This document shows positions 1-28,903 of a stretch of DNA of 28,903 nucleotides, piece by piece (positions within the stretch are counted from its first letter, which is position 1; each line of letters opens with the position of its first letter). The DNA is from a virus. Where the stretch lies: positions 1 to 28,903 of the IMG/VR virus record IMGVR_UViG_3300026518_000046; one strand, written 5' to 3'. Made by a program: the position numbers and the translations under genes. The notes under the pieces are model-generated. The model worked only from the letters and a program-made list of their open reading frames with translations. It was not told where the DNA came from and did no database searches.

Positions 1-107
1 TGATATATAAAACAATCAATATTATTTTTAATTTCTTCATATGTTGTTATTTCATTATTTTCAACACTTCTATATATTTTTATAGTCAAATTTTTTACAG
101 GAATCAT
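1..107 (-). CDS. head closure / head-tail connector protein, N-terminal part (continues at 28681-28903)
   Basis: The start codon is at 105-107 and the frame is open to base 1 (MIPVKNLTIKIYRSVENN...). Joining base 1 to base 28903 keeps the frame and yields a protein of about 109 residues ending IIRGVKQYDNIIDQHTECIL...KDE. The small size and the C-terminal pattern of an alternating beta region with a conserved R-V-K-x-Y-D stretch resemble the small head closure proteins that follow the head-tail adaptor in siphovirus head modules. It lies 6 bases downstream of the adaptor gene and just before an HK97 gp10-like gene, which is the usual place. Function is inferred mainly from order and length. 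Confidence 0.7.
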   Translation of the reverse strand, partial: MIPVKNLTIKIYRSVENNEITTYEEIKNNIDCFIY

Positions 108-113
108 CAGTTT

Positions 114-707
114 TTAATTATGATATATTTTAGATCTTTCTTTTCAAATGAATTTATATAATCTTTTAATTTCATCTTCTAAATTTTTAGTAAGATAAAA
201 ACTATAAGATCATGTATTTCAACTTGTTCAATCTTTTAATGTAACAGATAAATCTCCTTGTTTAAATGATTTTATATTTTCTGTATCAAATCAAGCAACA
301 GTTGTTTGATTTTGACTTGAAATTAGAAAATTTACTATTTTATACATTACCTCTTTTACTAAATAAGGTATTTCTGTATATCAAAATTCTAAATTAAAAG
401 TCATTACCTCATTATAAAAATCATTATTTTTTATTTTAATAGAATAATTAAATTGTTCAATATTTTCATTTTTATCTAAATTATTTATTTTTAATATATC
501 ATTTATTTTAATATACTTAAACTTATAAAATCAATCTTGGGCAAAAGGTTGTTTATAAGTTTTATTATGTATATTAAAAGTATCTATATTTAATCTATCA
601 TTTATTAAATTTTCAGCTTGAATTATTTTTGCATCTATTAAATCATTTTGAGAGTCATCTGTTATATTATAAAAAGATTTATATTCTTCTTTTGTTATAT
701 AACTCAT
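114..707 (-). CDS. head-tail adaptor (connector) protein
   Basis: 197 residues when TGA is read as Gly. The N-terminus (MSYITKEEYKSFYNI, then SQNDLIDAKIIQAENLIN) is the helical pattern typical of gp6/gp15-like head-tail connectors, in which the first helices contain D-x-x-I-x-x-x-I-x-x-A-E-x-x-I. Such proteins form a ring under the portal. The middle contains an aromatic beta region (KQPFAQDGFYKFKYIKI) and the C-terminal half includes a glycine-rich turn made with several TGA codons (about 165-172). It follows the major capsid gene and a small gene, and precedes the head closure gene by 6 bases, the standard order. The family call rests on N-terminal pattern and position. Confidence 0.75.
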
Positions 708-724
708 ATTTTTTTTAGTTAATA

Positions 725-982
725 TTATTTATTATCTTTTATTTCAACCTCTTTATTTTTAGTTTTAGTTTTTTTAGTTTCTTTCTTAATAGCTTCTTCA
801 AAAGGTATAAATCAATTTTTAAATAAAAATTCTATATTATAAATATCTGTTTTATAAACTTTTCCTTTTTTACAATTAGTTTGTTCTTTTGCAAATTTTG
901 TTAATCTAATAGTTACATCTCTATCAGCAACTACTGGAATTCTTAAATCATTTATTTTTTCTTGTACAGTTTTTTGTGCCAT
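725..982 (-). CDS. small protein between capsid and adaptor genes
   Basis: 85 residues, beginning MAQKTVQEKINDLRI. The middle (TIRLTKFAKEQTNCKKGKVYKTDIYNIEFLFKNGFI) resembles short phage head-module proteins with the pattern 'k-x-G-x-v-y-x-t ... e-x-L-x-x-x-G-x-I', often found next to the capsid gene. The C-terminus is a lysine-rich tail (about 68-85). The role is not known; a head decoration or assembly role is only suggested by its place between the major capsid protein and the head-tail adaptor. It contains just one in-frame TGA. Confidence 0.7.
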
Positions 983-1007
983 TTTTATTAAAATTATTTA
1001 TAAATTT

Positions 1008-1054
1008 TTGTATTTATATACAAATCAATAAGAAAGAATTATTCTTTCCTATTG
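1008..1054 (-). terminator. stem-loops after the major capsid gene
   Basis: CAATAGGAAAGAAT / ATTCTTTCTTATTG (minus strand, 1026-1054) forms a 14-pair stem with one G-U pair, 16 bases past the capsid stop. A second small hairpin TTGTAT-ATAA-ATACAA follows (1008-1023). There is no long U-run, so an mRNA-stabilising or partial terminator role is likely. Confidence 0.6.
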
Positions 1055-1069
1055 GATTTATATATAAAA

Positions 1070-2176
1070 TTATGATAAATCAATATTTTTTATACCAGCT
1101 ACAAAACCAGCTAAAATTGTTATTGCTAAATTAGCATGACAAACAGTTTCATATTGATCTTTTCTTGCAAGATATTGAGTTTTAATAATAGTATTAGAAT
1201 ATAAACCTTTTAATATACCATTATTATTAACTATTAACAATGTTCCTTTTGTATTTTGAGAAGGATCAGATGCATCAACAACACCATCTGCATTTGTTAA
1301 AGGAATATCAGAAACTTTTACATTCATACCTGCTATTCTACCTAATACACCAGATTTTACAACAGCTTCAGTTCCAAATTTTTCAACAGTTGTGAATTCA
1401 GGCATTTCTAATAATTTAGAATATGTATCTATATCACAAATTAGAGTTAAATCTTGTGGATTTAAACCTTTATCTCTTAATTTAGCTTTTGCAGCTAATA
1501 TTTTTTTGAAATCAATTACTCAACCATCTATTAAAGTATTATTTGCAATTGCTGATTTTCTAAGTCCATCAGCATTTAAATATGCTTCATCACCAGTTGG
1601 AGCAACACCTGTACTATTTACATTAGTAGTATCAGTTGCAGTATCACCATTTATAATTACGTCAGATGCAGTATTTACTAAACCTTTAGCAATATCATTC
1701 ATTACATCTTTTTCTACATTAAATCTTGCACTTTCAACAAATTCTCTTGTTAAATATACAGAAGTAGATATTTTTCTTGCAACTAATTCGATATCAACAT
1801 AACCACTTTTTGATGTTTTAGCATCAAATCCAGGAACATCTCTATTTTCTAAATTCTTATAGAATTTTAATCAACCTATATTGTGAGGAATTTTTTGAAC
1901 TTGTGCAGCCATTGAATAAGTTTTACCTAATCCATCAACTTTATCAAAAGCATCAAATTTTTCTATTAAAGTATTAGAATATTCTACTTGAGTTGTAGCA
2001 GCAGCTTCTGTATTAGTATTCATTGCTTCATCAGCTTTTACTTCTAATACAGCATCTTTTACTTCAACTTCTTTATCTTCTTTTACTTCAACTTCTTTAT
2101 CTTCTTTTACTTCATCTACAAATAGATCTTTTATTTCTGCTTCTAAATCAGCAGCATTTTTAATTTCTTTTGCCAT
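1070..2176 (-). CDS. major capsid protein (HK97-fold type)
   Basis: 368 residues with two in-frame TGA codons (after HNIG and after LIDG). The N-terminal 50 residues are very acidic/basic and carry a tandem octapeptide (KEDKEVEV twice), then a helical scaffold-like region. The rest has the usual capsid pattern: FYKNLENRDVPGFDA, VARKISTSVYLTREFVESARFN, VMNDIAKGLVNTASDVIINGD, and the C-terminal ITILAGFVAGIKNIDLS. It lies directly downstream of the prohead protease. The N-terminal segment could be the delta-like domain removed on maturation (inference from HK97). A terminator-like hairpin separates it from the protease gene, so expression may be adjusted there. Strong stem-loops follow its stop codon. 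Confidence 0.9.
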
Positions 2177-2303: not shown

Positions 2304-3275
2304 TTATACTAATGTTTGTGATATAAAATCACTTCATTTTATTGTATTATTTTTTTTTATTTCTACTTGTTTAGTAGTTTTAAAAGATAATCATTTTTTT
2401 ATTCAAATTGAATTTACATTACTTTTTAATATTTTTATTTCTGTTTTTGCTTCTTTAATTTCTTTTATTAAAGCTTTTAAAACATCTTTTGTTATTACAA
2501 TTCAATCATTTTTATTATCCTTATTAGTTATTTCATTTTCAATATTTTCATCTTCTATTTCTTTATCATTTTCTTCTATATCTTCATTTATAGCTTCATC
2601 AATTTCATCTAATGTTTCTACTTCATCATTTTCTTTTATTTTTTCTTTATTCTCTTTATTTTTTATATATTGTAATGCTTCTATTAAATCATCATCACTT
2701 ATATTATCAAAACTTACTTCTGTTTCTGTTCAATCTTCTCATTTTACTTCTAATTTTGAAAATGTCATATTTTTTAATTCTGCAAAATACTCTTTTGCAG
2801 ATTGAAATAAAGAATAAGGGTTAGCTGGAACAGAAACAATACTTATTTCTTTTAATTCTACTTCTATAAGTCTTCTTATAATTTGTAATTTACCATCTAC
2901 TTCTGTTTCTTCATACTTAACCTTTCTTGGTAAATATCATATAGAAAATCATTTAACTGTTCAATTTAATACTTTTCATTTAATTCAATCTTCATCATTT
3001 TTGATAATTGCTTTTATTTTTAATCCTTTACTATCTACTTTTGCTTCTATAACAGTTCAAATAGCTTTGTCCTGATTATGTCCTAATAGTAAAATAGGAT
3101 TTCTCTTAAATGTATCAAAATATTTTTCAAATGCAGTAGGTTCTACTACATCATTATAACTATCAAGTTTTTTAGTAGAAGCATATCATGTTATTTCTAT
3201 ATCTCAATTATCTAATTCTTTTATATTTTTTTGTTCAAATTTTTTAGTTTGAAAGTATAAAGTTTTATTATTCAT
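2304..3275 (-). CDS. prohead maturation protease with acidic C-terminal extension
   Basis: 323 residues. Residues 1-165 match the HK97-type (U35) prohead protease: ITGYASTKKLDSYNDVVEPTAF, then LLLGHNQDKAIG with the catalytic His near residue 66, and VKGFSIGYLPRKV with the catalytic Ser near 111, followed by LKEISIVSVPANPYSLF. These residues are shared by the family. Residues about 200-300 are strongly acidic and helical (coiled-coil-like), which suggests a fused scaffold, as in other phages where protease and scaffold are one chain. The gene precedes the major capsid gene and follows a promoter (3314-3341). Five or more Gly in conserved places are TGA. Confidence 0.9.
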
Positions 3276-3349: not shown

Positions 3350-4114
3350 CTATTTTTTATTATTTTTTATAGGTCTATATAAAGTAGTACATCTACATCT
3401 AAATCAAGTATTTGCATATTTAGTATGTGTTCAAGAAAATTCATCTGTTTCTTTAATCCATCAATCAAGTCAATTTTGAACATGTTCTGGTCTTACTTTA
3501 TTATCCTCAGCTGTTAATGCTTTTTTTTCAAATTTTATATTATGCTTTTTTTTAATTTCTTTAACTACTATTCAATTTCAATATTCATAAGCTCTTCAAA
3601 TTTCAGTAATTGCAATAATTTCTCACCTTGCTTTACTAAAAACTAATCAATCTAACTTATTTATATTTTTTGCTATTTCTGTATAACTCATTCACTCTTT
3701 TAATCATTTATATAATAGTTTTTTAATTCTTTTATTTGTAGTATTACTAATACTTCATTTATAATCAGATAAATGAATATTTTTTAATCTTTTTAAATAT
3801 TTTCAAGCAAGTGAAATACTATCATTTAGATCAATTTTTAATCAATTAGAATATTCTTTTAATATTTTTTTATTGTTATAAAATCATAATTTTATAACTG
3901 TTCATATAAATGATACTAATAAATCAACTATTTTTATATTGTTATTATCATTTAATAAAATTATATGGTCTATTATCTCTTTATTATTTTTATATATACT
4001 TATATTTATTTGTTTTAATATATTTTCTAATTCTTTTTTATTTTTTCATAATTGTTTTGATAATTTAACACTTAATTTTTTTTCTAAATCTATAATTTTT
4101 TGTTTATTATTCAT
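3350..4114 (-). CDS. minor head morphogenesis protein (Mu gpF / SPP1 gp7 type)
   Basis: 254 residues, stop TAG. The N-terminal two thirds is Lys/Ile-rich and helical. The C-terminal third carries the Mu-F-like module: IIAITEIGRAYEYGNGIVV, RPEHVQNGLDGWIKETDEF, and the terminal GFRCRCTTLYRPI, matching the family's end motif with paired cysteines (N-C-R-C). These proteins sit with the portal and enter the prohead in small copy number. Its start codon overlaps the end of the portal gene by 8 bases, so translation is probably coupled. Its stop is only a few bases upstream of the promoter driving the protease and capsid genes. Confidence 0.85.
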
Positions 4115-5330
4115 TATTATTTTTATTAGTAGTAGGGTTAATACTATTAGTATCTATATCATCTAATAATATTAAATTCTTATTTATAACTAATTTGTTA
4201 GCATTTTCATCATCAAATTCTTCAAGATCTAATAATTTTCTTCATTCATTTAATGTAAATAATCAATTATTTATTCATTTTGTAATAAAATCAATTTTTT
4301 CTTGATCAGTTTTACTATTTTTAATAAATATAAAACTATAACCTTCATATCATAATGAATTTAATAATAAATTTATTATTCATTCAATCTTTCTTTGTAA
4401 AGGTAGAATTGTTCAGTCATAAAATTGATAAAATTGATCTTTACTATTATTATAATTTATTCAATCAGAATAATTTAAAACTATTTTAGGGACACCCATT
4501 AAAGCACATAATCTTTCAGTTGTGAATTTTCTATATTCTAAATATTCCATATCTTTATTAGAAGTTCAAACTTGTTTAATGTCTTTAATTTTATTTGCTA
4601 TTAAAAATTTATGAGCATTATTTCAACCAGAAAATGATTTTTGAAGTTCATTTGTTAATAATTGAACCTCATCAATATATGTATCATCTTCATCTTCTCA
4701 AATTTCACTATCATCTTTTTGTTCATCTTCCAAAATTATTAGTTGAGAAGGAATCCCATTATTTTTGAAAAATGAATAATTAGATTTAGATGCTTCTTTA
4801 TCTCATAAAATTTCTGCTAATATACTTTCCATTTTAGATATTCAAAAAAATGGGTTGTCAAGATCTACATTATCTTTTATATGTATTATATCATCAGATC
4901 AAAATTCTATTATATTAGTTCATATTGTTTGTTTATATCAAATAACATCTCAATTAGTTGTTCACATAATTGTCATAGTTCTTGCATCTAATATATCAAA
5001 ACTTACAACTTGTCAATTATGATTTTTAATCTTTTCTATAAAACAATTTCAAAAAATATCTAATTCTTGTATAATTCTTGTAATAAATTCTTGTAATGTT
5101 TCATTTTTATTATAAATTAGTTGATTACTAAAATCTATAGTTTTTTCTCAATTGGAATTTATAAAATTATATCAATTTTTAGATATATTTTTTGTTTTTT
5201 CATCTATAATTCTTCTTAAATCACTATTTCATCTATATAAATTATAAAAATTTCATAAATGCATATATTCAGATAAATCATCAATTCAAAAATTAAATCA
5301 TTTAAGATTTTGTATTTGTCATTTTTTCAT
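4107..5330 (-). CDS. portal protein (HK97 family)
   Basis: 407 residues, the usual size. Recognisable segments: SDLRRIIDEKTKNISKNGYNF near the N-terminus; LQEFITRIIQELDIFGNCFIEKI (about 93-115), the family's conserved 'G-N-x-F/Y' region; IEFGSDDIIHIKD; GISKMESILAEI; ASKSNYSFFKNNGIPSQLIIL; and EYRKFTTERLCALMGVPKIVLNYSD, the C-terminal 'F...I...F.VP..ll' region. A short acidic insert (EDEQKDDSEIGEDEDD) lies near residue 225. It forms the dodecameric DNA-entry ring. It is the first gene of the structural operon, 38 bases from the -10 of a perfect TTGAAA-N16-TATAAT promoter, and overlaps the next gene. Confidence 0.92.
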
Positions 5331-5419: not shown

Positions 5420-5522
5420 TAATAGGTATTATTATTTATTATGTATACCCCTTACAGGAGCCCCCTTACAGGAGCCCCATAAGGGTAATACCCATGAAAT
5501 GGCTTTAATTAACTATTTATTA
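5420..5522. repeat. GC-rich boundary element A
   Basis: Left flank 5420-5449, 35-bp core 5450-5484 and right flank 5485-5522. The core contains two direct copies of CCTTACAGGAGCC in tandem and ends in CCTTA ... TAAGG inverted arms. Flanks match element B in direct orientation while the core is inverted. It sits between the end of the RusA-terminase operon and the promoter of the portal operon. Repeat of AAAGCC arms (GGCTTTAATT / AATTAAAAGCC) follows at 5500-5534. Confidence 0.88.
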
Positions 5523-6013
5523 AAATTAAAAGCCTTATTTCAAAAAATTCTAACTAATATAAAACTATTATATATTATAAAACTATAATATAACAATATT
5601 AAACTTACTAAAATATACCTAATAGGGTATAAAATAATATTTAAATTTATTTTTTCTAAATCTTTTATTTTTTTTGATAATCAAATTAAAGAATATTTTA
5701 ATAATCAAATATCAGCATTTAATTTATCTTCTTTATCTCAACCTACAAAATAAAAAATATCATGCCATTCATACTTAACTCAATCTAATAAATTAGTAAT
5801 AATTTTAATTATATTTTTAGAAAAATATGAAGGACCTATTCAATTGATTATTCATAATTCTTTTAATCTATCAAAATTTGCCTCTATAAAGTCTTTATTT
5901 TGTGTTAGGATAGAATATACCTCATTTATATCTTCTATATTATATAATCCATTTTGTTGGCATTTATCAATAAATTCATTTATTGATATTTCATTCATTT
6001 GTTTAATATACAT
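5513..6013 (-). CDS. unknown protein with phospholipase-A2-like HD...GG...AD signature and a membrane segment
   Basis: 166 residues, stop TAG. The middle has GPSYFSKNIIKII followed by EWHDIFYFVGGDKEDKLNADIGLL (about 82-105). The spacing H-D-x-x-Y-x-x-G-G...A-D is seen in small phospholipase-A2-like bacterial proteins; this resemblance is by eye only. Residues about 125-155 form one strongly hydrophobic helix (IRYILVSLILLYYSFII), then a short basic tail. It closes the RusA-terminase operon, 23 bases after the terminase gene, and its stop sits in the conserved flank of the GC-rich element at 5420-5522. A second possible start lies at 5996-5998. Function unknown; a host-envelope role is a guess. 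Confidence 0.7.
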
Positions 6014-6036: not shown

Positions 6037-7458
6037 TTAAGTAGAACTTACTACCATTCTGTTTCTTTTTTTTGTTTTTTTAGGTCAAAAACTTCTAACC
6101 ATACTATCAACCCTATCATCATGTGCAACATCAGGAAATGATAATAATTGAGTTTGTAAATCTTCAGTTGCTCATTCATTCTCATTAAAAAATATTTTTC
6201 AACTTTCAAAATCACCTTGCCATTGTAATAAATAAGTAACTTTATCTTTTATAGACGTAACTCATTTAACATTTAATCTCATTTTTTCAAAATCTTCTTT
6301 TAATAAAGTTTGAAAACCATTATCTTCTACAAATATTTTATCAACATTATATTCTTCATATACTCTCATTATTGTTTTATTTCTATTTATTGTTCTTTTT
6401 TGCTTTCCTTTTAATCATAAATTTTTAATTACATATTTATCTTTTCATTTTAGTCATGTTATAGTTATTCAGAATTCATCAGCAGTTGTTTTTTCAGATA
6501 TTGCAGGATCTAATCACATATAAATTCTATCAAATTCAATTTTATCTTTTTTATAATCAAAATATTTAATATCTTCTTGTTTAATTATACTATCCTCAGA
6601 ATTCATTGCTATATTCATATATTCTTGATTGAATATTAGAGATCCAAGCTTTTCTTTTCTTTTATTTAATTTAGCAATACTCCATTTTCAAGCCCATAAT
6701 ACTTTTCAATTTATTATTGCAGCATATTCTATTGTATTCCATCAAGCATCTTTTAAATATTTTACTAAACATAAGTTTCAGACTATTGTTCAAATTGTTA
6801 TAATATGTCAAGAGTCCATCAATGTTCAATAAACAGAACTTAGAAACCATGTTTTTTCTTTGTTCCAAGTTTCAGGTTTATGCGCTTCTTTATCTATATC
6901 ATCAACTACAATCCTTTCAGGTCTCTTTCATCTTATACTTCATCAAGGAGTTATAAGTTCTAAAGATACTCAATTTGTTAATTCTATTAAACTTTGTCTA
7001 AATTTCTTTTTTCAATATAATTTTGAAAATTCTTTTGTTTTATCTGGAATTAAATCTCAAAAAATAGTTAATATTTTTTTATTTCTTAATAATTCATCAA
7101 TAATTTTTCAAAAAAACTCTTCTCATAGTTGTTTTGTTGCAACATAAAGCTGTGAATTATATGTTTTATATAATAAAGAATGTAATATATCTAATAATAA
7201 CATTGTAGTTTTTCAGTGTCATCTCGCTATTATTATATTTAAATCTATTTTTTTATTTAATTCTCATATAATTTCTTTATGATGCTTTCAATATGCGCTT
7301 GTTATTATATCTTCTAAAAAGAATTGTCAAAACCATAATTTGTCATAATATCATTTATTATATATATATTGCTTTAATTCATCTCATTTTAATTCATCAA
7401 CAATTTTATCAAGTTTTTTTATATATTTTTTATCAATTATTTTATATTTTTTTTCCAT
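6037..7458 (-). CDS. terL: terminase large subunit
   Basis: 473 residues. ATPase half: LNIIIARGHGKTT (Walker A, residues about 75-84), with both glycines of the GHGKT loop encoded by TGA; LYVATKQLGEEF; LITPGGSIRGKRPERIVVDDIDKE (Walker B, about 183-190). Nuclease half: YMGLDPAISEKTTADE with the first metal-binding Asp, FVEDNGFQTLL with the second acidic group, and PDVAHDDRVDSMV near the C-terminus. This is the complete set for a DNA-packaging motor. It lies 3 bases after the RusA gene. The ARGHGKTT loop is one of the clearest proofs that TGA means Gly here, since Trp in these places would destroy the P-loop. Confidence 0.96.
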
Positions 7459-7461: not shown

Positions 7462-7857
7462 TTAATTAGTTAATTCTTCTAATTCAAATTCTATAAATTC
7501 TTCTCATTTTTTTACTTTTTCTTTTTCAGATGTTTGTTTATATATTTTATTATCATTAAATCATAAATATTCAGCTAAAACATCTTGAAAAAGCTTATTT
7601 GAGTTATCTACATCACTACCTATATTAGAAACTCATATTTTTTTAATTAAATGTAATTTAATTTTTTTATTTCAAAAATCTATTCAATTATAAATGTCTT
7701 TTATATTATTTATTATAAAAAAACTCATTAAATCTTTTTTTAACTGTTTTGCTTCTTTACTTAAAAACATTCAGCATTTTTTACCTTTTTTTGTAAATAT
7801 AGGTCATATTTTATAAGTAGCATTTAAAGAAATTGATTTTAAAGGTATTTTTATCAT
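7462..7857 (-). CDS. rusA: RusA-family Holliday junction resolvase
   Basis: 131 residues, the usual RusA length. SISLNATYK near the N-terminus corresponds to the family's S-x-N-x-x-Y, and YLT-like MFLSKEAKQLKKDL follows. The acidic active-site set appears as GSDVDNSNKLFQDVLAEYLGFNDNKIY (D82, D84-N85, K88, D92, and D102 by my count), then K-rich strand ending in acidic EFIEFELEEL. RusA enzymes cut four-way junctions as dimers and in phages often clear branches before packaging, which fits its place directly ahead of the large terminase gene. A TTGATT-N16-TATTAT promoter lies upstream (7883-7910). Confidence 0.82.
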
Positions 7858-8026: not shown

Positions 8027-8101
8027 GGGGTAGCATGCCAATGGAGGCTAATCTCTCTTGCACAGAGATTGTGGTGGGTTCGATTCCCATCTATTCCACC
8101 A
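8027..8101 (+). tRNA. tRNA-Ala (anticodon UGC)
   Basis: The acceptor stem GGGGTAG pairs with CTATTCC, including the G3-U70 wobble that marks alanine tRNAs. The anticodon stem TCTCT/AGAGA encloses loop CTTGCAC with anticodon TGC at the centre. The T arm GTGGG-TTCGATT-CCCAT is regular and the 3' CCA is encoded. The D stem is short (GCC/GGC). It reads GCA, a codon well used by this phage. Confidence 0.92.
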
Positions 8102-8115
8102 TTATATTTTAATAT

Positions 8116-8190
8116 GCTCCCATAGTTCAATGGTTAGAACAAATGCCTTGTAAGCATTAAATTTCAGTTCAATTCTGAATGGGAGCTCCA
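8116..8190 (+). tRNA. tRNA-Thr (anticodon UGU)
   Basis: Perfect acceptor stem GCTCCCA/TGGGAGC, discriminator T, encoded CCA. The anticodon stem AATGC/GCATT carries loop CTTGTAA with anticodon TGT, which reads ACA. The D arm (AGTTCAATGGTTAGAAC) and the TTCAATT loop of the T arm are normal. Confidence 0.93.
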
Positions 8191-8196
8191 TTATAT

Positions 8197-8272
8197 CAGA
8201 GTATAGCTCAATTGGTAGAGCACTCGGTTTGGAACCGAGGGGTTGTAAGTTCAAGTCTTACTATTCTGACCA
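8197..8272 (+). tRNA. tRNA-Pro (anticodon UGG)
   Basis: Acceptor stem CAGAGTA/TATTCTG with the C1-G72 pair typical of bacterial proline tRNA, discriminator A, encoded CCA. The anticodon stem CTCGG/CCGAG holds loop TTTGGAA with anticodon TGG, reading CCA. D arm AGCTCAATTGGTAGAGC and T arm with TTCAAGT are regular. Confidence 0.93.
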
Positions 8273-8312: not shown

Positions 8313-8313
8313 C

Positions 8314-9105
8314 TTATTTAGTTAAATTGTCTATTGTTTTAATTATTTCATCTTGATTTAATCTTATTCAATATTTATTTATAAAATATAAACTTGATAT
8401 TCCTAAAATAGTTATTAAAATTAAAATAGCTATTTTTTTAATACTCATTTTATTAAAAATATTAAATAAAAGTTTTATTAAATCCTTATTATCATTTATT
8501 TGTTTTAAAATATCCTTTTTATTTTGTTTATTATTTATTTCTTTAATTATTTTTGTATTATTTTCTTTTGTTTTTTCTTTTATTTCTATTTGTTTTTTTA
8601 GATATTTTCTAAATCAATCCATATCTCATGCAAAAAAATTTGATGAAGGATCTATTTTATTAGTAGTTATTTCTTTATGTCATAATACATTTTCAATTTT
8701 AATATTATTTCTTTTTATAATATCAAGTGATAATTCTTTTAAACTTTCTATTTGTTCTTTTGTATAAGGATCTTTTCAATTTCCATAATTTTCTAATTCA
8801 ATTCATACACTTATAGGATTTAAGTTCCATCCCCATCTTGTTTGTTCTTTTGGTCCTATATTAGATTTTCCAGTATGCCGAGCTATATAATTTTCTCAAA
8901 CTAATGCCCATATAATACCATCTTTTCCTATATAATAATGAACTGAAACTTTTGAATTAGGATTCCTTCAAGAAAGCATATTAAAATCTCATGGAGCATG
9001 TCATGCTGTATGATGTATAATTAAATATTTAATTATATCATTTTTATGTCTTAAATCTTTATTTTTAGTAAAGTTTAATAATTTTTGTTTAATTTTTGTT
9101 ATCAT
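8314..9105 (-). CDS. N-acetylmuramoyl-L-alanine amidase (endolysin) with C-terminal membrane helix
   Basis: 263 residues. Residues about 25-175 are an Amidase_2 (T7 lysozyme/PGRP-like) domain: YLIIHHTAGHAPGDF with the zinc His, SVHYYIGKDGIIWALV, ARHTGKS, WGWNLNPISVGIELENYGN, and GHKEI...KIDPSSNF with the second His and the K-x-D-P motif. It cleaves the bond between N-acetylmuramate and L-alanine. A charged coiled-coil-like linker (about 180-220) leads to one hydrophobic helix near residues 228-246. A membrane-linked lysin is unusual for a siphovirus and suggests signal-arrest-like or anchored release, but orientation is unclear. It is the last gene of the tail/lysis operon, next to the holin. 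Confidence 0.9.
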
Positions 9106-9695: not shown

Positions 9696-9732
9696 ATTAT
9701 TCCTTATTTTAGTTATATTATAAATTAAAGTT

Positions 9733-16719: not shown

Positions 16720-16914
16720 TTATTTTTTATTAATATTTATTATTCAAGGTACTTGATAATTATATTTTCATACTTGTTTTATATATTTTGTGTAATCTAA
16801 TGTATACTCATGTATATTAGACTTGTTTATTCATAATAATTTTAATCTTGTCTCTAAGTTATTATTAAATTCATTATTAATATTTTTTATAGTTTCATTC
16901 ATTAAATTTGTCAT
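16720..16914 (-). CDS. small unknown protein
   Basis: 64 residues (MTNLMNETIKNINNEF ... YTKYIKQVGKYNYQVPGIININKK). No motif recognised. It fits snugly between the DUF5681-like gene and the ParB-like gene (3 bases to the latter), so it is very likely translated. Starts at codons 16912-16914; another Met lies four codons in. Confidence 0.65.
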
Positions 16915-19552: not shown

Positions 19553-19792
19553 TTAAAATAAATCTACACCTTCTATATCAATATCCAAGTTATTAGTATT
19601 TACATTATTTTCTTTTTTATTTTCTATAAATTTTTCCATTTTGAATTTATCATTTTTTAATACAGGAATTTTTATTTCTCATTTAAATGTATTTTTACTT
19701 GTATTAAATGTATTTTTTGAAATAAGACCTAATTTATCATTTATTTCATTTAGAATTTTTGTTAATTCTATATATTCTGTTTTATTTTCCAT
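19553..19792 (-). CDS. small unknown protein with acidic C-terminal tip
   Basis: 79 residues: MENKTEYIELTKILNEINDKLGLI ... FKGEIKIPVL ... NNVNTNNLDIDIEGVDLF. The last ten residues are acidic and end in Phe, recalling the tip of single-strand binding proteins, but there is no OB-fold sequence and the chain is too short, so this is only a remark. It lies 25 bases after a winged-helix gene and downstream of ERF, so a DNA-related role is possible. Confidence 0.65.
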
Positions 19793-19816: not shown

Positions 19817-20098
19817 TTATTTTGATAGATTGAAATCTAATCATTTTTTTGTAATAGCATATGCTTGTCTTGGTTTAGATCTAAATAAGAATTGCATTTT
19901 AGGTTCTATTATACCTACTACCTCTACAAGTCAATGTTTCTTTAATTCAACAAGTCTTGCACTTGCGGAATATCAAATAAAAGGAACCTTAGACCATATA
20001 AATGGGTTAACAAAATCTACTGGATCTATAATTTTATTAGGATGTTTTTTCATATATTTTAATATTTGTCATTTTTGACTATTTTCTTGTAATCTCAT
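19817..20098 (-). CDS. winged-helix DNA-binding protein
   Basis: 93 residues. GQILKYMKKHPNKIIDPVDF, then GYSASARLVELKKHGLVEVVGI and KPRQAYAITKKGLDF match a small winged-helix fold: helix 1, recognition helix with 'a-R-L-x-E-L-x-x-x-G-l-v' and wing strands ending 'Y-x-i-T-x-k-G'. Such proteins are usually transcription regulators. Encoded in the early region between ERF and a small acidic-tail gene; it could act on the many near-identical promoters, but this is not shown. Confidence 0.78.
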
Positions 20099-20158: not shown

Positions 20159-20824
20159 TTATAAAGCTTTTATTGCTTCTCTAACTTTTTTATTGATTTT
20201 ATAGTTTTCTGATAATTTTTTTATAATATCATCAGGAGTTTCTCATTTTTCAATTCTTTCCTTCATAACTTTTTGATGTTTTTCAAAATCATTATACCAT
20301 GGTTTTTCATCATTAGTATTATTATTACTACTATTTGATTTCTTTATATCTTTTTTTGATGCTGCTTTTCAATCATCATCTTCAACTTCAAGATCTAACA
20401 TAGATAAAACATTATATCTTCTATAATAAGTTATTTCAGAACCTTTTTTTTGTGCATCAAGTCATTCTTTCATTAAAAGTTTAGATATTATAGTTTCTTC
20501 TGGTTTATCTATATTTACTATTTTAGTTATTACATATCAATCTTCTATTGTATGTATAATCACTAATCAAACTTTTGTTATTATAGGGTTTAATTTTTTT
20601 TGTATCTGATCTAATGTAGCATATTTATAATTATAAGCTTTTGTATCTCTTTGTAATGAAATATTTTCTTTTTTAATTTCATTTATTTTTTGATAGATAT
20701 TCATTTTTGTAAAATCTATTTCTTTTGTTTTTTTTATATTTTGTGTAATTTTTTTTAAATTATCTCATAAATTTTTTTGTAAAGATTTATCTAAATCTGA
20801 TATTTGTTTTCATATGGTTGTCAT
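20159..20824 (-). CDS. erf: ERF-family single-strand annealing protein
   Basis: 221 residues. Residues about 70-165 match ERF: YKYATLDQIQKKLNPIITKVGLVIIHT, KGSEITYYRRYNVLSMLDLEVEDDDGKAA, the latter close to the family's 'G-S-A-x-T-Y-x-R-R-Y-x-L-x-x-x-L-g-i-x-x-e-d-D-D-g-x-x-A'. ERF anneals complementary single strands and circularises phage genomes by recombination. The C-terminus holds a Ser/Asn linker and a helical segment (DEKPWYNDFEKHQKVM). First gene after the promoter array at 21077-21323. Confidence 0.93.
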
Positions 20825-21342: not shown

Positions 21343-21525
21343 TTAATCAATATCTTGTGTATAAATTCAATTAGCTTCAATTCCATTTTTTATTAGTTTG
21401 ATGTCAATTCAATCTATAATATCTTTTATTAGTTGTTCTTTTATTGTGTTATTTTTTATTAGGATATTATTATCTAATAAAGCTTTTTCTATAATAGCTT
21501 CTGTTTCTTCTATTGTTAATTCCAT
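21343..21525 (-). CDS. small unknown protein
   Basis: 60 residues: MELTIEETEAIIEKALLDNNILIKNNTIKEQLIKDIIDGIDIKLIKNGIEANGIYTQDID. Acidic helical start. No family recognised. It follows the replication initiator gene by 22 bases and ends right at the promoter array. Confidence 0.65.
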
Positions 21526-21547: not shown

Positions 21548-22174
21548 TTAAATATAACTTATTAACCCATTTTGTTGTTTCAAAAATTTTAAAGGTGTTA
21601 ATAAATATTTTTTTTGCCAATTTTCTCAATCTCTTTCTTTTTTTGATTTAATATAATTATTAAATCAAGATAGGATTCCTTCTTTTCAATATTCTTTTTT
21701 AATTTTAGAATATTGTTTTAATAAAATAGTAGTTACTTTATTATTAGTATTAAATATTTTATTCCAATATTCTATAAATTTTTCAACTTCTATTTTATCT
21801 TCTTTATTAGTATTATTATCTTCCTTTTTCTTAATAATAATTTCTTCTTTATTTACTTTATCTTTAATATTTTCTTTTTTTAAATCTTCTGTATTGGGAT
21901 GTAATATCCAAATCCGTTTAAAGTCTCATTTGATATTTATACAATATCTTAATAATACTCAAATAGTTTCTAATTCTTTAACCATTCTTGATATTTTTTT
22001 CTTTCATACTCATAATTGAGCTTGAATTCATCAAAAATTAAAATTCCAATCTGGTGGTCTTGATATTAAATAACAATATAATCATTTCGTATCTAATCAT
22101 ATATCTTTATTGTTAATAATATCATTTCAAATTATAGAATATCAATTTTGTAGTCTATTTTGTAGTTGTTCCAT
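21548..22174 (-). CDS. replication initiator / replisome organiser-like protein
   Basis: 208 residues. The N-terminal domain (IIGNDIINNKDIGLDTKGLYCYLISRPPDWNFNFGGIQAQLGVGKKKISRMVKELETIGVLLRY) is a winged helix of the type seen in phage replication proteins, in which a host-like 'k-g-L-y-x-y-L-x-s-x-p-x-w' start is followed by a recognition helix. After a Lys/Glu linker (about 110-135), the C-terminal part (VEKFIEYWNKIF ... WQKKYLLTPLKFLKQQNGL) resembles DnaD/replisome organiser ends. Expected to bind the origin and load the helicase encoded just upstream. Confidence 0.82.
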
Positions 22175-22212: not shown

Positions 22213-22407
22213 TTATTTAAATCATAATAATTTTTGAATATGAATATAAGCATAAGTAAATTTTATATTTTTACTTAAAAATTTAATTCATTTATGTCTA
22301 TAAGTTTTAGATATTTTCTTAAATCATTTATAATCTTTTTTGATTTCTTCTTTATGTTCTTTTCATATATGTTTTTTCATATATTTTTTTATTATTCTTT
22401 TATTCAT
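22213..22407 (-). CDS. small basic protein
   Basis: 64 residues, strongly basic: MNKRIIKKYMKKHIGKEHKEEIKKDYKGFKKISKTYRHKGIKF ... FTYAYIHIQKLLGFK. No family recognised; charge suggests nucleic-acid binding. First gene after the promoter at 22499-22526 and its inverted-repeat leader. Confidence 0.6.
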
Positions 22408-22680: not shown

Positions 22681-24135
22681 TTAAAATATAATTTCTGTAT
22701 TTGCATCAAAATTTCAATTTAACTTATCTTTATCTATTTTGATGTCTGTGTATTGTAATGTATCAAAATCAAATTGCATATATACAGTTCAAGTTCATTT
22801 TCATTTTTCCCTGTTTTTTGCTATTATAAGCTCTGTTTCAGAATTTGGCTGTAACTTATCTCTATATAATAATAAAACCTTGTTAGCAACCTGTGATATA
22901 GCCATACTATCCTTAAAAGATGTTTCCGATGGTTTTCATTCTATTTTTTTGAAATGAGCTATTAAAAATATTAAAACATTATATTTTCTTGTAATATTTT
23001 TTATTTTATACATTACTTCTTCTATTTTTAAGTCTTGTCTTTCTTTTGCTCAATCTACATTAAATTCTTGTAAATGGTCTATTATAATTATATTGCAACC
23101 TTGTTGTATACCTTGTTTAACTATTTCTTCTAATTCATCAATTTTAATTTGTTCTTCTTTATTTCTTTTTACTTCTAGTATATGTTTATTATCTTTAATT
23201 AGATTATTTATTGCTTCATTTTTAATTTCTTCTGATATTTTAAAATTATTACTTATAAAATCATTATAATTGATATATCTATTTTCTTTTTTTCTTAATA
23301 TTTTATTTAATTCTACTAAATATTCTTGTTTCTTTTTATCTTCTAATCTATCTTCTAACGTGAACTTTAATACTTTATTATCGCTTTTTCATATCTTTTT
23401 TGCTATATTATTAACAAATGTTGATTTTCAAGTTCAGGTAGTTCAACCTACTAATATTAACTCTCATTTTTTTATGTATCATATTTTTTCATCTAAATCA
23501 TCATATCCCCAACTAAATACATCACCTTTATTTGTTTTTGCTAATTCTTCTAATCAAGTTTTTAATGTATCTTCATAATTTATAATTTCAAATTCTTTTT
23601 TAATATTGCTTATAAATGTATTATCATTTATTTGTTTTATTAAATCTTCTCTATTTTTAACTTTATCTATTGAATTATTTATAATAGAATAATCTATTTT
23701 CAATTTTTTATCTATTAGAATTTTATCTTCTAATATAATCTTTTTATTTTGTTTATATAATTTAGTATATAAACTATTAAATTCCTCTATATTTATAAAT
23801 CATTTAATTATAACTATATAATTTATATTATAATATTCTAAAATAGGAATATTATATCTATTTCAAGTTATAAATATAAAATCTGAATTTCATTTTCAAA
23901 ATGTTATTTTTCAATCTTTATTTTGTTGAAAATCATTATTAAATAATTGATATTCTATATCTAATAAATTATTTTCTTTTTTTATTTGTTTTTTATCTAA
24001 TTCTATATTAAAATTATCTTTATAAAAATTAGATAATTTTTGTATTTGCTCTTCAATTTTTTCTTTTTTTTGTAATATATCTAATTCTTCTAAATTAGGT
24101 ATTTTTACAAAATTTAATATGTTATCTATATTCAT
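22681..24135 (-). CDS. DnaB-like replicative helicase (RecA-fold)
   Basis: 484 residues. The C-terminal half is DnaB-type: VFSWGYDDLDEKIGYIKKGELILVGGTTGTGKSTF (Walker A about 229-239; three of its glycines are TGA), a Walker B strand NIIIIDHLQEF (about 348-357), VLIFLIAHFKK with the polar sensor His, SFKDSMAISQVANKVLLLYRD and LIIAKNREKGKGT, the arginine-finger loop, close to the 'K-x-R-x-G-x-x-g' of DnaB. The N-terminal 200 residues are helical, charged and unlike the canonical DnaB N-domain. It should unwind the phage origin with the winged-helix initiator. First gene of the early operon. Confidence 0.93.
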
Positions 24136-24428: not shown

Positions 24429-24531
24429 TAATAAGTATTATTATTGATTATGTATACCTATTATGGGGCTCCTATGAGGGGGCTCCTGTAAGGGGTATAA
24501 CCATATAATGGCTTTATTTAGCTATTTAATA
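24429..24531. repeat. GC-rich boundary element B
   Basis: Left flank 24429-24458, 35-bp core 24459-24493 with two GGGGCTCCT blocks, right flank 24494-24531. The flanks match element A (5420-5522) in direct orientation at 28/30 and 30/38 bases; the core matches the reverse complement of A's core at 31/35. The stop codon of the gene at 24518 lies in the right flank. The core and its TATACC/GGTATA arms can fold. Confidence 0.88.
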
Positions 24532-24892
24532 TTGCCTGAATTTCAGTATATGCATTTAATGCCTTAATTTGAGTTTCACTTCTTTGATCCTCTGGTATAT
24601 CTAAAACATATTTTGCTAATACTCCTGCCATTAAATTTATTTGATCTGTTATAGAAGCTATTTTTATAATTTCTTCTCTTTTTTGTATTTTTCAAGTTAA
24701 TATTTGATATTCAATAGAATTTTGTGATAATAAATCAGTTGTTCAATCTGTATATTTTATATTTACATACGAATTATCAGGAGATAAATTCATATTTTCA
24801 ACAATTTTATTTGTATCAATATTATCTTTTAATATAATATCTTTATTTTCTGTTGTATTTATTAAAATATCTATATTTTTATATGTTTCCAT
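24518..24892 (-). CDS. unknown protein following the fibre gene
   Basis: 124 residues: METYKNIDILINTTENKDIIL ... VNIKYTDGTTDLLSQNSIEYQILTGKIQKREEIIKIASITDQINLMAGVLAKYVLDI ... AILNS. Mixed N-terminus and helical C-terminus. No family recognised. It is the last gene of the structural operon, 18 bases after the fibre gene, which suggests a fibre chaperone or cap, but no evidence beyond position. Stop lies in the flank of element B. Confidence 0.7.
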
Positions 24893-24910: not shown

Positions 24911-26542
24911 TTAAATAGGTGTAACTATAACTCTTCATAATCACCAATTTTTTCAACATCAAATCACATCTGCTTTATCACATCTATAAGAAAAAGTATG
25001 AGTTCATGGATTTAATATTCAAGTCCAACTTCTACTTACAGGTTTCCAAGATGCATTTGTTGTAGATGTTAAATGTTGTATGCTTCAATTTCATACTGTC
25101 TTATTTCAATCTACCATTAACCGAACATCAAATCTAGCTGTATAGTTTCAAATTGTTTCTACATCATATCTAACTAAACTTTTATGTGTAATATTTACTG
25201 TTTGTAAATTTATATCAGTATCTGCTGCATGTGTAGCAGGACATCAAGTTCTTGTATCATGTTGTATAAATACTTTTGTTTTTGCAACTAAATTAGAACT
25301 TAATCAATTTCAAAAGATAAAATGTCAAGTATCTCAATTTGCATATCAAATAATTAAATCATTTTCATTTGGTATATAATCTAAATAATAAGTTACAATT
25401 ATATCTGCTGTATCTTTTCAAATTCTACTTGTAGTTTTTATTTCTGCATCTGTTAATCTTAAATAAGCTATATTCCAGTTTGGTACAGATAAATTATCGC
25501 AAGTATCTAAATTTATATGTCATCATTGTCATTCTCATGAAGGTATCCAAATTATTCTTTGAGATATTGTTAATTCATTATTATTCCATGTAATATCTCA
25601 TCATCAACTCATAAGTATTTGATTTCTTCTCATAAGTTCATGTTTATATATTTTATCTTGAATTGATGTTATTATATTATTATCTTTAATTAAAGTTAAA
25701 TTAGATAAATCTGTTTTATCAAAAACTACTTCTGATCAAGATATATTTACTAATAAATGATCAACAGCTGTATTAGTTCAGATAATTATAAAAGTATTAT
25801 TTGCAATATTTTTTCAATCTGCATCATCTAATGTTGCATATTTAATAGTTGTCATACTATCCTCACTTCAAACTTCATACGCAAATTGATAGTCAGATCA
25901 ATCATAAACATATACACCTCTCTTTTTTCATAATCATAATGCACCTGTTTTTGTTAATATAGCCCAGTCTCATTTATTTGCTGCTTTTCAATCATCATCA
26001 GTAGTAGGTAATGTATCAAACGTATCACTATATCATAAAAATTGTCAAGGAACATTTTTATTTTTTATTAAAGTTTCTATTTGTTGAAATAATGCTTTTA
26101 CTGTTTGATTACTTCAAAAAATTCATTCATTAAAATCTCATAATGTCTCATCTCAATTATTTACTCATTCTAAGTTATATAATTTAGTTATAAGATCATT
26201 CAAGTTTTTACCTTGATTTGCTGATAATGGTTTATCTAAATCTATACTTGTTACATTATCTATAACATCTCTTTTTGTTAAATTTTTTATATCTTTTAGA
26301 TCTAATGCTTGAATAGTATAGGAATCCACTTTTTTATAATATCATCCTTGTTTATAATCTCAAGTATCATATGAACCTTGATCAGCTTTCAAAAATATTA
26401 TATCATCTACACTATAATTAGCTATTTCATTGATAGCTTCATCATAATTAGCATAATTTTCTTTAACTATAACTTTATTTAGTTTATCTTCTTGTTCTGA
26501 TGTTAATGCAGAACTTCAATTAGTTTTAATTCATAAAAACAT
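24911..26542 (-). CDS. tail fibre / receptor-binding protein
   Basis: 543 residues. Residues about 115-145 contain VTSIDLDKPLSANQGKNLNDLI, a motif shared by many phage tail fibres before a trimeric shaft. Next is FLGYSDTFDTLPTTDDDGKAANKGDWAILTKTGALG...KRGVYVYDGSDYQFAYEV (about 190-245), a common fibre module. The C-terminal 300 residues are Gly/Thr/Asn-rich beta structure with conserved Trp (TWNNNEL, RIIWIP, VPNWNIAYLRL, ASWKPVSRSWTG) and end in CGKNWGLGRVIVTPI. Three TGA codons in a row encode GGG at 25598-25606. It probably binds the host surface and is placed in the structural operon behind the tail tube. Confidence 0.85.
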
Positions 26543-26566: not shown

Positions 26567-26878
26567 TTATTGAACTTTTTTAGAAATTCTTACTTCTAAT
26601 TTTCAATCTACATCCTTAGAATACATATATAAATCAGATATTGTTCAAAATGTAAATAAATGTATTTCATTAACTCATATTTCATCATTTTCATTACTAT
26701 CATCTATATTTATATTCTTTCAGTTATGAATTTCATTTATAAATATAGAATTAGTTCATACATTATTCATATCTACATAATCATCTCAAAATCTTTGTTC
26801 TATTTTGTTTGGATATTGTGATTTTATTAAATCATATAAAGTTTTAGTTCAATCATTTTTAGGTATTGTTATTTTCAT
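26567..26878 (-). CDS. unknown tail-region protein
   Basis: 103 residues: MKITIPKNDGTKTLYDLIKSQYPNKIEQRFGDDYVDMNNVGTNSIFINEIHNG ... IHLFTFGTISDLYMYSKDVDGKLEVRISKKVQ. Looks like a small beta-rich virion protein; the N-terminal half recalls short proteins between tail tube and fibre genes in some phages. No family firmly recognised. Preceded by a terminator-like hairpin. Confidence 0.7.
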
Positions 26879-26910
26879 TTTTTATATTTATTATTAAAAT
26901 ATTTAATATA

Positions 26911-26933
26911 AAAAGTCTAATTAAAGACCTTTT
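26911..26933 (-). terminator. hairpin after the tail tube gene
   Basis: Minus strand AAAAGGTCT-TTAAT-TAGACTTTTT: a 9-pair stem with one G-U, and its 3' arm is the U-run. Probably lowers transcription between the abundant tube protein and the fibre genes. Confidence 0.7.
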
Positions 26934-26938
26934 ATATT

Positions 26939-27919
26939 TTAATAATCTGTATCTTTATCATTTATTAGCTCTATTTCAATAGCTTGATTATTAACACTAT
27001 CATATGCAACATCAAATCCTAATGTTTCTTCAACTAAACCATTTAAGTCATCAGAACTATCCCAGCTTTCAAAAGTTAATTTATTTATCTTTATAGTTAT
27101 TTTAGCTTTTACACTTCAAATTGTTCTTCATTCAACTTCTATAATTGCTGCTTGATTAGTTCCATTTAATACTTTTTGTCTTAAATCATCACTTTCCATT
27201 ATTGCAGTTAAATCTCAATTTATTGTTGTTTGTAAATTATTTAAAGAAATTACCCCAGTATCACCATGTATTGCTGTATTTTCTTTAACATTTTTATTTA
27301 CATTTAGATTTATTTCTTTTAAAGGAGTTGGTGTAGCAGAAGCTGCTGCTGTTAAATCAGTTCAAAATTTAATAGTAGCATTTGAAGCTAAGAATTCTTT
27401 TTCAACTGAATTATAAGTAGGTGTTACATTATTAGTTGCATCTACAATAGCTTTACCTTTATAAACAGATTTAAATTTAATAGTTTCTCAACTTACAAGA
27501 TTTATAGATGCATTATCTAACATACTATAACCAGCTTGTTTATTTCAAGTTTTAGATACTTCATATATAGAAAATGTATCATTACAATTATCATTTTGAA
27601 GTTCAAATTTATGAGTATGAGTTCAATCTAAATTATCTGTATTTGTATATGTAGATAATAAACCTAATAAAATATATCAAATAGAAACATCTAAAACATC
27701 TCATTCAATTTCAGTTTTTGACATTACTTTACTTACATTATTATTATAGTTTTCTATAATTTGACCATAAGCATTAGTATTTTTACTAACCTCTATTTCA
27801 GGCACTAATTTAGCCTTAGAGAATGGTATAAATATAGATGGGTCTACTAATGTCCCAGCTGTTGTTTCTTTTGCTATTCAGATAGCATTTAATCTTTTAA
27901 TTTGTGTATTACAAGTCAT
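26939..27919 (-). CDS. major tail tube protein
   Basis: 326 residues. MTCNTQIKRLNAIGIAKETTAGTLVDPSIFIPFSKAKLVPEIE is the usual opening of phage tail tube proteins ('i-G-i-x-k-E-t-t-x-G-t ... i-P'). It continues with KVMSKTEIEGDVLDVSIGYILLGLLST, then THTHKFEL ... CNDTFSIYEVSKTGNKQAGYSMLDNASINLVSGETIKFKSVYKGKAI, as expected for tube proteins of the Phage_tube family, and FDVAYDSVNNQAIEIELIN at the end. Three-fold THTH and Gly-rich turns use TGA. Located after the tail completion proteins; a hairpin follows. Probably polymerises into the tail tube around the tape measure. Confidence 0.88.
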
Positions 27920-27934
27920 AATATTTTATAGTTA

Positions 27935-28336
27935 TTAGTTAATTTTATTTAATGCTGTTGCAGATATATTTATATCAACAGCTCTTTTAGGTTGTTCAGT
28001 ATCTTCATATCAGAACAAAATATTTGTTTTTATTTTATATAATGAACAATCTTGTTCAATTTTTCTTAATTTTTCTAATACTTGATCTATCAAAATCCTT
28101 ATTCTATCTTCCATTACTTGTCTATTTTTATTTTGTTCTGTTATTCTAACATTAAAGTTATAAATAGTTTGAAATGAATTACTATCATAACCTTGTTGGT
28201 CTCATGTTGTAGGATAGATTATAGCATTAGGAAATGTATCTATATTAGTTTTTTCATAATTCCAAGTTCTTGTATTTAATTTAGGAATATCATTTATTTC
28301 AGTATATAATCTATCTCATATATCTTTATAACTCAT
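27935..28336 (-). CDS. tail terminator-like protein
   Basis: 133 residues: MSYKDIGDRLYTEINDIPKLNTRTWNYEKTNIDTFPNAIIYP...SFQTIYNFNVRITEQNKNRQVMEDRIRILIDQVLEKLRKIEQD ... ISATALNKIN. Pattern and length resemble tail completion/terminator proteins (alpha-beta ring, 'f-x-v-x-i ... a-e-x-x-i-x-x-l-x-d-x-v-x-x-x-l'). It overlaps the HK97 gp10-like gene by 11 bases and precedes the tube gene by 15 bases. Trp here is TGG while Gly is TGA. Confidence 0.75.
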
Positions 28337-28688
28337 TATTATTTCTTATTAAATTATTTAAATGTTGTTCAAAAATATTTCAAATATTATTTTCTATATA
28401 ATTTTTTGCTTTTTTCATATAATATTTTCTATTTGGGTGTTTTTTATTTTCAAATTCTCTCCTTTTAGCATATTTTAATTTACTTCATATTTGTCAAATT
28501 AAATTATTATTTAATGTTGTTTTAATATTAGTAACTATACTTCTTCTTAAATTTCAACTTAATATAGGAGCATTAGATTTTGCTATATTTTGACCTTGAT
28601 ATATCAAATCAATAAATCATTCTGTTAATCTATTTATATCACTTTCAGAAAAAAAATTATATTCAATATTTATATTATAATTATTCAT
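28326..28688 (-). CDS. HK97 gp10-like tail completion protein
   Basis: 120 residues. NAPILSGNLRRSIVTN (about 39-54) is the 'A-P-x-x-T-G-x-L-r-x-S-I' motif of HK97 gp10; GQIGSKLKYAKRREFENKKHPNRKYYMKKAKNYIENN is the second conserved part, where the family has 'Y-A-x-x-v-E-f-G ... p-x-P-f-x-r-x-A'. Overlaps the head closure gene by 8 bases and the tail terminator gene by 11, so the three are translationally coupled. Acts at the head-tail junction in related phages. Confidence 0.85.
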
Positions 28689-28903
28689 CTTTATTTTTAA
28701 TTAAAATACATTCTGTATGCTGATCTATAATATTATCATATTGTTTTACTCATCTTATTATATATTCTTCATTATTATTATCAATTATTTTATCTCATAA
28801 TAATATATCTTCTTTATCTAATAATAATTTATATCATTGATATGCAGGTATATCATCATTTCATATAATAACATCTTCTGATAATGGATATATAAAACAA
28901 TCA
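28681..28903 (-). CDS. head closure protein, C-terminal part (continues from 1-107)
   Basis: Open frame to the window end, ending at a TAA at 28681-28683. Reads FIYPLSEDVIIGNDDIPAYQGYKLLLDKEDILLGDKIIDNNNEEYIIRGVKQYDNIIDQHTECILIKNKDE after the join. The first four residues (DCFIY) repeat at the very start of the window, so the two termini may overlap by one copy of an 18-base unit or the gene may truly carry a tandem 6-residue duplication. The pattern 'd-x-I-x-x-x-x-x-x-Y-x-I-x-x-V' suits a small head closure protein. Confidence 0.7.

Follow-up and report, generated by a model that had tools for sequence, protein, structure and literature searches.

A siphovirus-like phage that reads UGA as glycine, probably reads CGG as tryptophan and largely avoids UGA in its capsid gene

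The virus record IMGVR_UViG_3300026518_000046, analysed over its whole length of 28,903 bases (GC 20%) and called the window below, is a phage genome in which UGA encodes glycine in early and late genes, TGG stays a tryptophan codon and only UAA and UAG act as stops. Judged from its genes, it is a siphovirus-like tailed phage, and the explanation that best covers the whole, held with high confidence, is a siphovirus-like phage of bacteria that read UGA as glycine (Patescibacteria). CGG is probably read as tryptophan too, via a host transfer RNA (tRNA), so that the phage would follow a two-codon change going beyond translation table 25 (code 25) alone. The glycine reading of UGA is already known in phages; tryptophan CGG in a phage and UGA avoidance in the capsid gene appear to be new, with the caution that the CGG case rests on few sites.

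An earlier reading made from the letters alone (the sequence-only reading) had called code-25 phages scarcely described, a statement overtaken by two publications. Code-25 phages of Absconditabacteria and Gracilibacteria, drawn from IMG/VR and GVD, were published by Liu et al. 2023 (PMC10746230), and as described there they resemble the window in their dense in-frame TGA and in yielding almost no annotation under code 11. The phage RSA-ATP1 (2026; PMC13059738), assigned to Strigamonas, is likewise tailed, uses code 25, carries tRNA genes and has virion genes readable only with that code. By its description, however, it is set apart by a genome of 39,071 bp, a tRNA-Gly(UCA), homologues of NinB, NinG, Exo and Bet, and UGA in 39 of 65 open reading frames (ORFs), compared with 28.9 kb, an ERF-type protein, no tRNA(UCA) found and UGA in 37 of 37 ORFs in the window. 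The main text of Liu et al. makes no mention of CGA or CGG, whereas CGG is probably tryptophan here. In the main texts of the open-licence literature, no report was found of CGA or CGG as tryptophan in phages, nor of UGA avoidance in phage capsid genes.

UGA as a glycine codon

From 62 ORFs listed under code 25, 37 protein genes were kept, covering 89% of the window. In-frame TGA, expected by the sequence-only reading in nearly every gene, occurs in all 37 and makes up 439 of the 550 glycine codons, the remainder being GGT (67), GGA (38) and GGG (6), with no GGC. The genes end in TAA (34) or TAG (3) and never in UGA, and reading with table 11 leaves merely six ORFs of at least 100 amino acids. 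Stop-to-stop frames of at least 100 codons cover 0.87 of the window with TGA as sense, compared with 0.18 with three stops. With TGA as sense, 20 random sequences from a first-order Markov model had a mean coverage of 0.043 and a maximum of 0.083. As a control, TAA as sense gives 0.85 in the window, yet random sequences already reach 0.71; TAG as sense gives 0.22. A GC content of 20% might suggest that the open frames merely reflect AT richness or gene decay, but the random coverage and the Pfam matches at E<=1e-3 in 10 of 10 tested proteins (with the terminase large subunit, TerL, just under the curated cut-offs of its families) refute this, and its chance is practically nil.

Code 4, in which TGA encodes tryptophan as in Mycoplasma and some phages, opens the frames as well, and reassignment of TGA to tryptophan is known from more bacterial clades (PMC8629427). 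It is refuted, with only the faintest probability left to it, by scores and alignment columns, as the sequence-only reading had argued from motifs. With TGA read as tryptophan, each of the 10 proteins tested had a weaker Pfam match or none: those of TerL and the phosphoesterase were lost, the portal protein fell from 148.6 to 111.4 bits and the tape measure protein from 100.8 to 80.2, while the capsid protein, as expected from its two TGA codons, hardly changed (27.9 to 27.1). TGA at 439 of 8573 codons would also be a very high share for tryptophan, and GGN would leave only 111 codons for glycine.

For the column test, TGA in the window was masked and the proteins were aligned with standard-code homologues. 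At the resulting 50 TGA sites glycine leads with a weight of 17.1, followed by alanine (5.1) and serine (4.7), and tryptophan is outside the six leading residues; eight GGA sites taken for comparison give glycine 4.8. In the comparison with code-25 relatives, from which partner TGA codons were excluded, 70 sites give glycine 25.4 and alanine, the next residue, 9.2. Because Pfam scores, standard-code columns and code-25 relatives agree, UGA is read as glycine; TGA does not fall mainly at tryptophan columns or protein ends, the finding that the sequence-only reading had said would speak against it. The motifs which that reading cited are all present, although not every glycine in them is TGA. 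Both glycines in ARGHGKTT of TerL are TGA, as are those of GNHD, GHTH and DDDG; VGGTTGTGKST of the helicase has three TGA and one GGT, and GGIAGL of the tape measure protein has GGT followed by two TGA. In RWGWN, also correctly cited for tryptophan TGG, the glycine is GGA.

Some large phages recode a stop codon themselves (PMC10746230), and a late suppressor tRNA acting in a standard-code host, as in Lak phages, would be another way to read through UGA. This was rejected and is very improbable: no tRNA for UGA (anticodon UCA) was found in the phage genome by ARAGORN or Rfam, replication genes are TGA-rich as well (18 of 23 glycine codons in the helicase gene, 13 of 15 in the initiator gene), and relatives of TerL sit in TGA-coded bacterial genomes. 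The tRNAs that are present, for alanine, threonine and proline, match GCA, ACA and CCA, used 187, 325 and 51 times. Since a tRNA-Gly(UCA) was not found in the phage, UGA would be decoded by that of the host.

Related phages and the host group

A DNA pattern of the TerL Walker A motif containing two TGA matched 64 stretches in IMG/VR, among which were eight TGA-coded contigs, all eight with a homologous TerL (E 1.8e-43 to 1.7e-114). Three of the eight are near copies; G001 and G004, near copies of G007, were left out of most counts, with G001 kept for the capsid gene. Capsid alignment gave 16 loci, eight of them with code 25 (L398-L404 and L035, which was known before). As L398 and L400 are contigs G006 and G008 again, five contigs are new, and the capsids of L403 and L404 are 96% alike. 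Helicase patterns added one further code-25 contig of 19 (L339). Scanning IMG/VR with the TerL and portal proteins returned three standard-code loci only; among the 80 matches listed for a second TerL pattern none was a convincing code-25 contig, and a third pattern returned only the known G001/G004/G007 group.

Bacterial genome contigs scanned with the TerL pattern gave no match, and with an EF-Tu pattern two. At the protein level, one bacterial family with code 25, here family B, had TerL relatives with E<=1e-10 in 5 of the 48 genomes covered; all of these relatives are rich in TGA and span 467-515 codons when read with code 25. A second such family (family A, which includes contigs titled UBA6263 and Gracilibacteria bacterium Tobar13m-G42) had a match in 2 of 49 genomes, each over part of TerL only. 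The class of G009 had matches with E<=1e-5 in 25 of 288 genomes; many TerL relatives there lack any in-frame TGA. From these data family B, which carries related prophage genes, is the likely host group, with the exact host not proven. In the family B genome G211, positions 550001-570000 of contig C7 (L107) hold a TGA-coded prophage, many of whose genes resemble those of the phage contig G005; this genome reads CGA and CGG as arginine.

Several points weigh against the host assignment. The bacterial TerL relatives share only 32-40% identity, and host names are unsettled, because a family A contig is titled Gracilibacteria, yet its CGA as tryptophan fits published Absconditabacteria. Spacers in clustered regularly interspaced short palindromic repeats (CRISPR), proposed by the sequence-only reading as a way to identify the host, gave no clear link among the matches listed in 48 genomes, a weak test in which 5-6 of several hundred candidates per genome were scored. 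A blastn search of the window against these genomes listed mostly short AT-rich and tRNA matches. Short near-exact matches, not placed relative to CRISPR arrays, occur at window positions 16323-16355 (30 nt, 97%, in G134; 33 nt, 94%, in G144, both of family B), and 40 nt at 7915-7954, around 7927, match a site in host genome G269 at 95%. A site in the family B genome G235 resembles the tRNA-Pro stretch at 83%.

CGG as a probable tryptophan codon

The sequence-only reading had assigned code 25 in full. Its glycine UGA and its UAA and UAG stops stand, but the standard meaning of all remaining codons probably does not extend to CGG. In bacteria, CGA and CGG are predicted to encode tryptophan in Absconditabacteria, and CGG to encode tryptophan in some Gracilibacteria and arginine in others (Shulgina and Eddy 2021, PMC8629427). 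The same paper describes two phage assemblies that read AGG as methionine, a precedent for phages following a sense-codon change. The change was reported there in bacteria; it is probable here in phages, together with two host genomes bearing a tryptophan-type tRNA(CCG).

CGG occurs five times in the window and no other CGN codon occurs at all. At the rate of G-ending codons in the seven other fourfold boxes (28 of 1851), five of five would arise by chance with a probability of 8e-10, which in a genome of 20% GC speaks against an ordinary rare arginine codon. Two codon-ratio comparisons agree with this: CGA:AGA is 0:159 compared with 5:13 for CGG:AGG (p 6e-6), and CGG:TGG at 5:34 resembles the leucine C1/T1 ratio of 51:668 (p 0.2). 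All of these comparisons, the fourfold boxes included, were picked once the counts had been seen.

In the endolysin, CGG stands at the tryptophan position of AWHAG in AmiD-type amidases. The column holds tryptophan in four of four PDB sequences (three AmpDh2, one AmiD) and in three of the seven phage homologues compared (of 22 found), the other four having asparagine or tyrosine; arginine is found in none of the 11. Reading the codon as tryptophan raises the Pfam score from 97.4 to 104.1 bits and 11 of 12 PHROG scores.

The phage relatives and bacterial genomes extend the comparison. CGA sits at tryptophan columns in phage contigs G003 (3 of 4 sites) and G008 (6 of 12), and at arginine or lysine columns in L401 (15 of 21). 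L339, a contig of 59648 bases, has CGT five times and CGG once within the 5.3 kb examined. In bacterial codon columns computed with CGA, CGG and TGA masked, family A genome G010 has tryptophan for CGA at 51 of 116 sites and for CGG at 6 of 9, and tryptophan for CGG is found in family B genomes G144 (20 of 26 sites), G069 (6 of 9), G281 (6 of 7) and G053 (2 of 2). G069 and G281 each carry a tRNA with anticodon CCG, A1:U72 and G73, read by eye; these are tryptophan-type features as used by Shulgina and Eddy, with base 20 ambiguous in the D-loop of both. G281 also has a tRNA(UCA) with glycine features (GCG start, U73; read by eye). A host tRNA bearing a CCG anticodon and tryptophan-type identity bases would thus probably read CGG as tryptophan. 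Because the mixture of tryptophan and arginine at CGG fits the remark of Shulgina and Eddy on Gracilibacteria, family B is cautiously placed on that side (perhaps Gracilibacteria/BD1-5), its naming being uncertain.

Pure table 25, with CGG an ordinary rare arginine codon, is given a minor but real chance, since several results count against tryptophan. The tryptophan reading has one conserved site in the window, and even there the PHROG_822 score falls. The initiator site mildly prefers arginine: with tryptophan, four of six spanning PHROG families score lower (PHROG_270, 49.8 to 47.0) and two slightly higher. The other three sites, two in the fibre gene at 10233-11945 and one in that at 24911-26542, have no testable alignment; Pfam and PHROG matches of the former stop short of them, and a PDB search with the latter gave no match. 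Ten CGG sites in phages and prophages fall at tryptophan (4), leucine (2) and arginine, lysine, phenylalanine and threonine (one each). In G144, 11 of the 20 tryptophan sites come from one paralogous family, and G211, a code-25 host genome, has arginine for CGG at 19 of 35 sites and lysine at eight more, with arginine for CGA at 309 of 474. Tryptophan nevertheless remains the probable meaning of CGG in the window. By their alignment columns, the relatives and host genomes fall into dialects, with CGA and CGG both tryptophan, CGG alone tryptophan, or CGA arginine.

The capsid gene avoids UGA

Full adaptation to the code had been claimed for the phage. TGA is indeed its main glycine codon, and one run of three TGA occurs (codons 313-315 of the gene at 24911-26542), but its use is not uniform. 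The major capsid gene has TGA at 2 of 24 glycine codons, compared with 434 of 528 elsewhere (p 4e-14). In code-25 phage contigs with a capsid gene found by homology, depletion is seen in 10 of 10 (p 4e-14 to 1.6e-3), with TGA shares of 0 to 40% in the capsid genes and 38 to 86% elsewhere; these contigs form six groups below 55% identity, and those from the capsid alignment were found with patterns holding one standard glycine codon, a small bias. A capsid-like gene in a prophage of the family B genome G287 has TGA at 9 of 34 compared with 292 of 345 (p 3e-12), which brings the depletion to 11 of 11 tested capsid genes with code 25. In two of three phages the tail tube gene is depleted as well (p 8e-4 and 3e-4; 0.09 in the third).

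Recent uptake of the capsid gene from a standard-code phage, not expression, might account for missing TGA, and capsid genes do differ in a few other codons as well. It is an improbable source, however, of a depletion that recurs in all ten contigs, across the six groups and in the prophage, and that reaches the tail tube gene. Pooled over four phages, the capsid genes favour GCT, ACT, ATC and AGA over their synonyms, a preference that looks like translational selection. The major capsid gene is generally taken as the most expressed. UGA may be a slower or less accurate glycine codon, and the capsid gene may be kept in GGU and GGA by selection because UGA would be costly in a gene expected to be the most expressed. 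Against this, UGA avoidance was not shown in host translation genes, where the result was mixed, with few genes and EF-Tu contigs chosen by a TGA pattern.

Drawing these lines together, we lean, by a little, towards a single tailed-phage family spread over at least three codes, which would re-spell its sense codons between host lineages and use the tRNAs of its hosts; the window would represent the CGG-only dialect, and the capsid genes would show the cost of glycine UGA. If phages follow even the rare changes that their hosts make in sense codons, the meaning of a codon could serve as a host label for phages without a CRISPR match, and table 25 applied automatically would write wrong residues into the annotation of such phages. 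Capsid UGA avoidance would be a sequence-based and measurable sign of costly glycine decoding of UGA, and the phage family a natural comparison for virus genes crossing a code boundary.

Genome completeness and gene layout

The genome is essentially complete and circularly closable at about 28.9 kb, because its ends share a 17-base overlap (2-18 identical to 28887-28903, with no further copy in the window), the cut gene at 28681-28902 becomes an intact ORF when they are joined, starting right behind the connector gene, and the virion genes then fall into a closed order (TerL, portal, Mu F, protease, capsid, connector, joined gene, gp10-like, tail tube). Position 1 has a base that disagrees with this junction. 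All 37 protein genes lie on the minus strand, and the plus strand carries only an array of three tRNA genes. Pfam and PHROG matches to head, tail, packaging, lysis and replication genes together indicate a tailed phage, and the siphovirus-like marker set of Caudoviricetes is present (TerL, portal, HK97-type capsid, tape measure, Dit). Among the PHROG matches listed for the 37 genes there was neither a tail sheath nor an integrase family. Replication and recombination genes, in the 15943-26542 region, lie between the tail tube and tape measure genes, splitting the late module in two on the circular map. The features are as follows.

2..18, plus: left copy of the 17-base terminal overlap
114..707, minus: head-tail connector, gp6-like (Pfam Phage_connect_1, 21.4 bits; PHROG 541/132)
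725..982, minus: small protein (weak PHROG_9723)
1070..2176, minus: major capsid protein, TGA at 2 of 24 glycine codons (Pfam Phage_capsid; PHROG_10; codon counts)
2304..3275, minus: prohead protease (Pfam Peptidase_S78, 69.9 bits)
3350..4114, minus: Mu F-like head morphogenesis protein (Pfam Phage_Mu_F)
4107..5330, minus: portal protein (Pfam Phage_portal, 148.6 bits)
5513..6013, minus: protein without PHROG match, with a homologue in relative G002
6037..7458, minus: TerL, Walker A ARGHGKTT with TGA glycines (PHROG_38, 211.5 bits; relatives)
7462..7857, minus: match to PHROG_11573, a family of unknown function; presumably RusA-like, by eye, although no search names RusA
8027..8272, plus: tRNA genes Ala(UGC), Thr(UGU) and Pro(UGG) (ARAGORN; Rfam RF00005)
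8314..9105, minus: endolysin, Amidase_2, CGG at codon 76 (window 8880) in the AWHAG position (Pfam, 97.4 bits with arginine, 104.1 with tryptophan)
9174..9743, minus: holin (Pfam Phage_holin_4_1)
9733..10215, minus: protein without PHROG match
10233..11945, minus: tail fibre, TGA at 40 of 40 glycine codons, two CGG (PHROG_8469)
11950..12966, minus: probable tail protein (beside Dit; homologue in G006, E 2e-6; no profile match)
12971..13912, minus: distal tail protein Dit (PHROG_33, SPP1_Dit)
13925..15700, minus: tape measure protein (Pfam PhageMin_Tail; PHROG_991)
15943..16236, minus: small tail protein, perhaps an assembly chaperone (weak PHROG_166, tail)
16249..16716, minus: ParB-like domain protein (Pfam ParB_N; PHROG_620)
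16720..16914, minus: small protein (no PHROG match)
16933..17346, minus: candidate small terminase subunit (homologues adjoin TerL in G004, G006 and G007; the matched profile has no assigned function)
17496..17777, minus: small protein (no PHROG match)
17781..18116, minus: hydrophobic protein, by eye (no PHROG match)
18129..19502, minus: calcineurin-like phosphoesterase, exonuclease (Pfam Metallophos; PHROG_284)
19553..19792, minus: small protein (weak PHROG_9233)
19817..20098, minus: possible regulator (weak PHROG_2440)
20159..20824, minus: ERF-type single-strand annealing protein (Pfam ERF)
21343..21525, minus: small protein (no PHROG match)
21548..22174, minus: replication initiation protein, one CGG at codon 87 (PHROG_270)
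22213..22407, minus: small protein (no PHROG match)
22681..24135, minus: DnaB-like helicase (Pfam DnaB_C, 90.6 bits; PDB helicases)
24518..24892, minus: small protein (no PHROG match)
24911..26542, minus: tail fibre-like protein, three-TGA run, one CGG (Pfam Phage_fiber_rpt, 28.4 bits)
26567..26878, minus: small protein (no PHROG match)
26939..27919, minus: tail tube protein, TGA at 10 of 20 glycine codons (Pfam Phage_tube_2)
27935..28336, minus: tail completion protein, by position (homologues in G006 and G008; no PHROG match)
28326..28688, minus: HK97 gp10-like protein (PHROG_5; Pfam 21.0 bits, just under the cut-off)
28681..28902, minus: gene cut at its 5' end and whole once the ends are joined; head closure, by position only (no PHROG match)
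28887..28903, plus: right copy of the 17-base terminal overlap

Noncoding elements

A promoter-like motif, ACTTGAAAAAAAA, followed some 10-20 bases on by a TATATA-like stretch, has seven exact copies, all intergenic: six on the minus strand, at 3342, 5397, 17482, 21105, 21218 and 22527, and one on the plus strand at 7927, upstream of the tRNA genes. A GC-rich hairpin element containing GGGGCTCC repeats occurs twice in gaps between genes, at 5403-5522 and 24412-24531; the two copies are 73% alike, with predicted folds of -33.6 and -35.3 kcal/mol (120 bases each). A repeated block at 20998-21357, mostly between genes, has a spacing of 113 and 106 bases, and its fourth copy, 84% alike, lies 3 kb away at 24165-24305.

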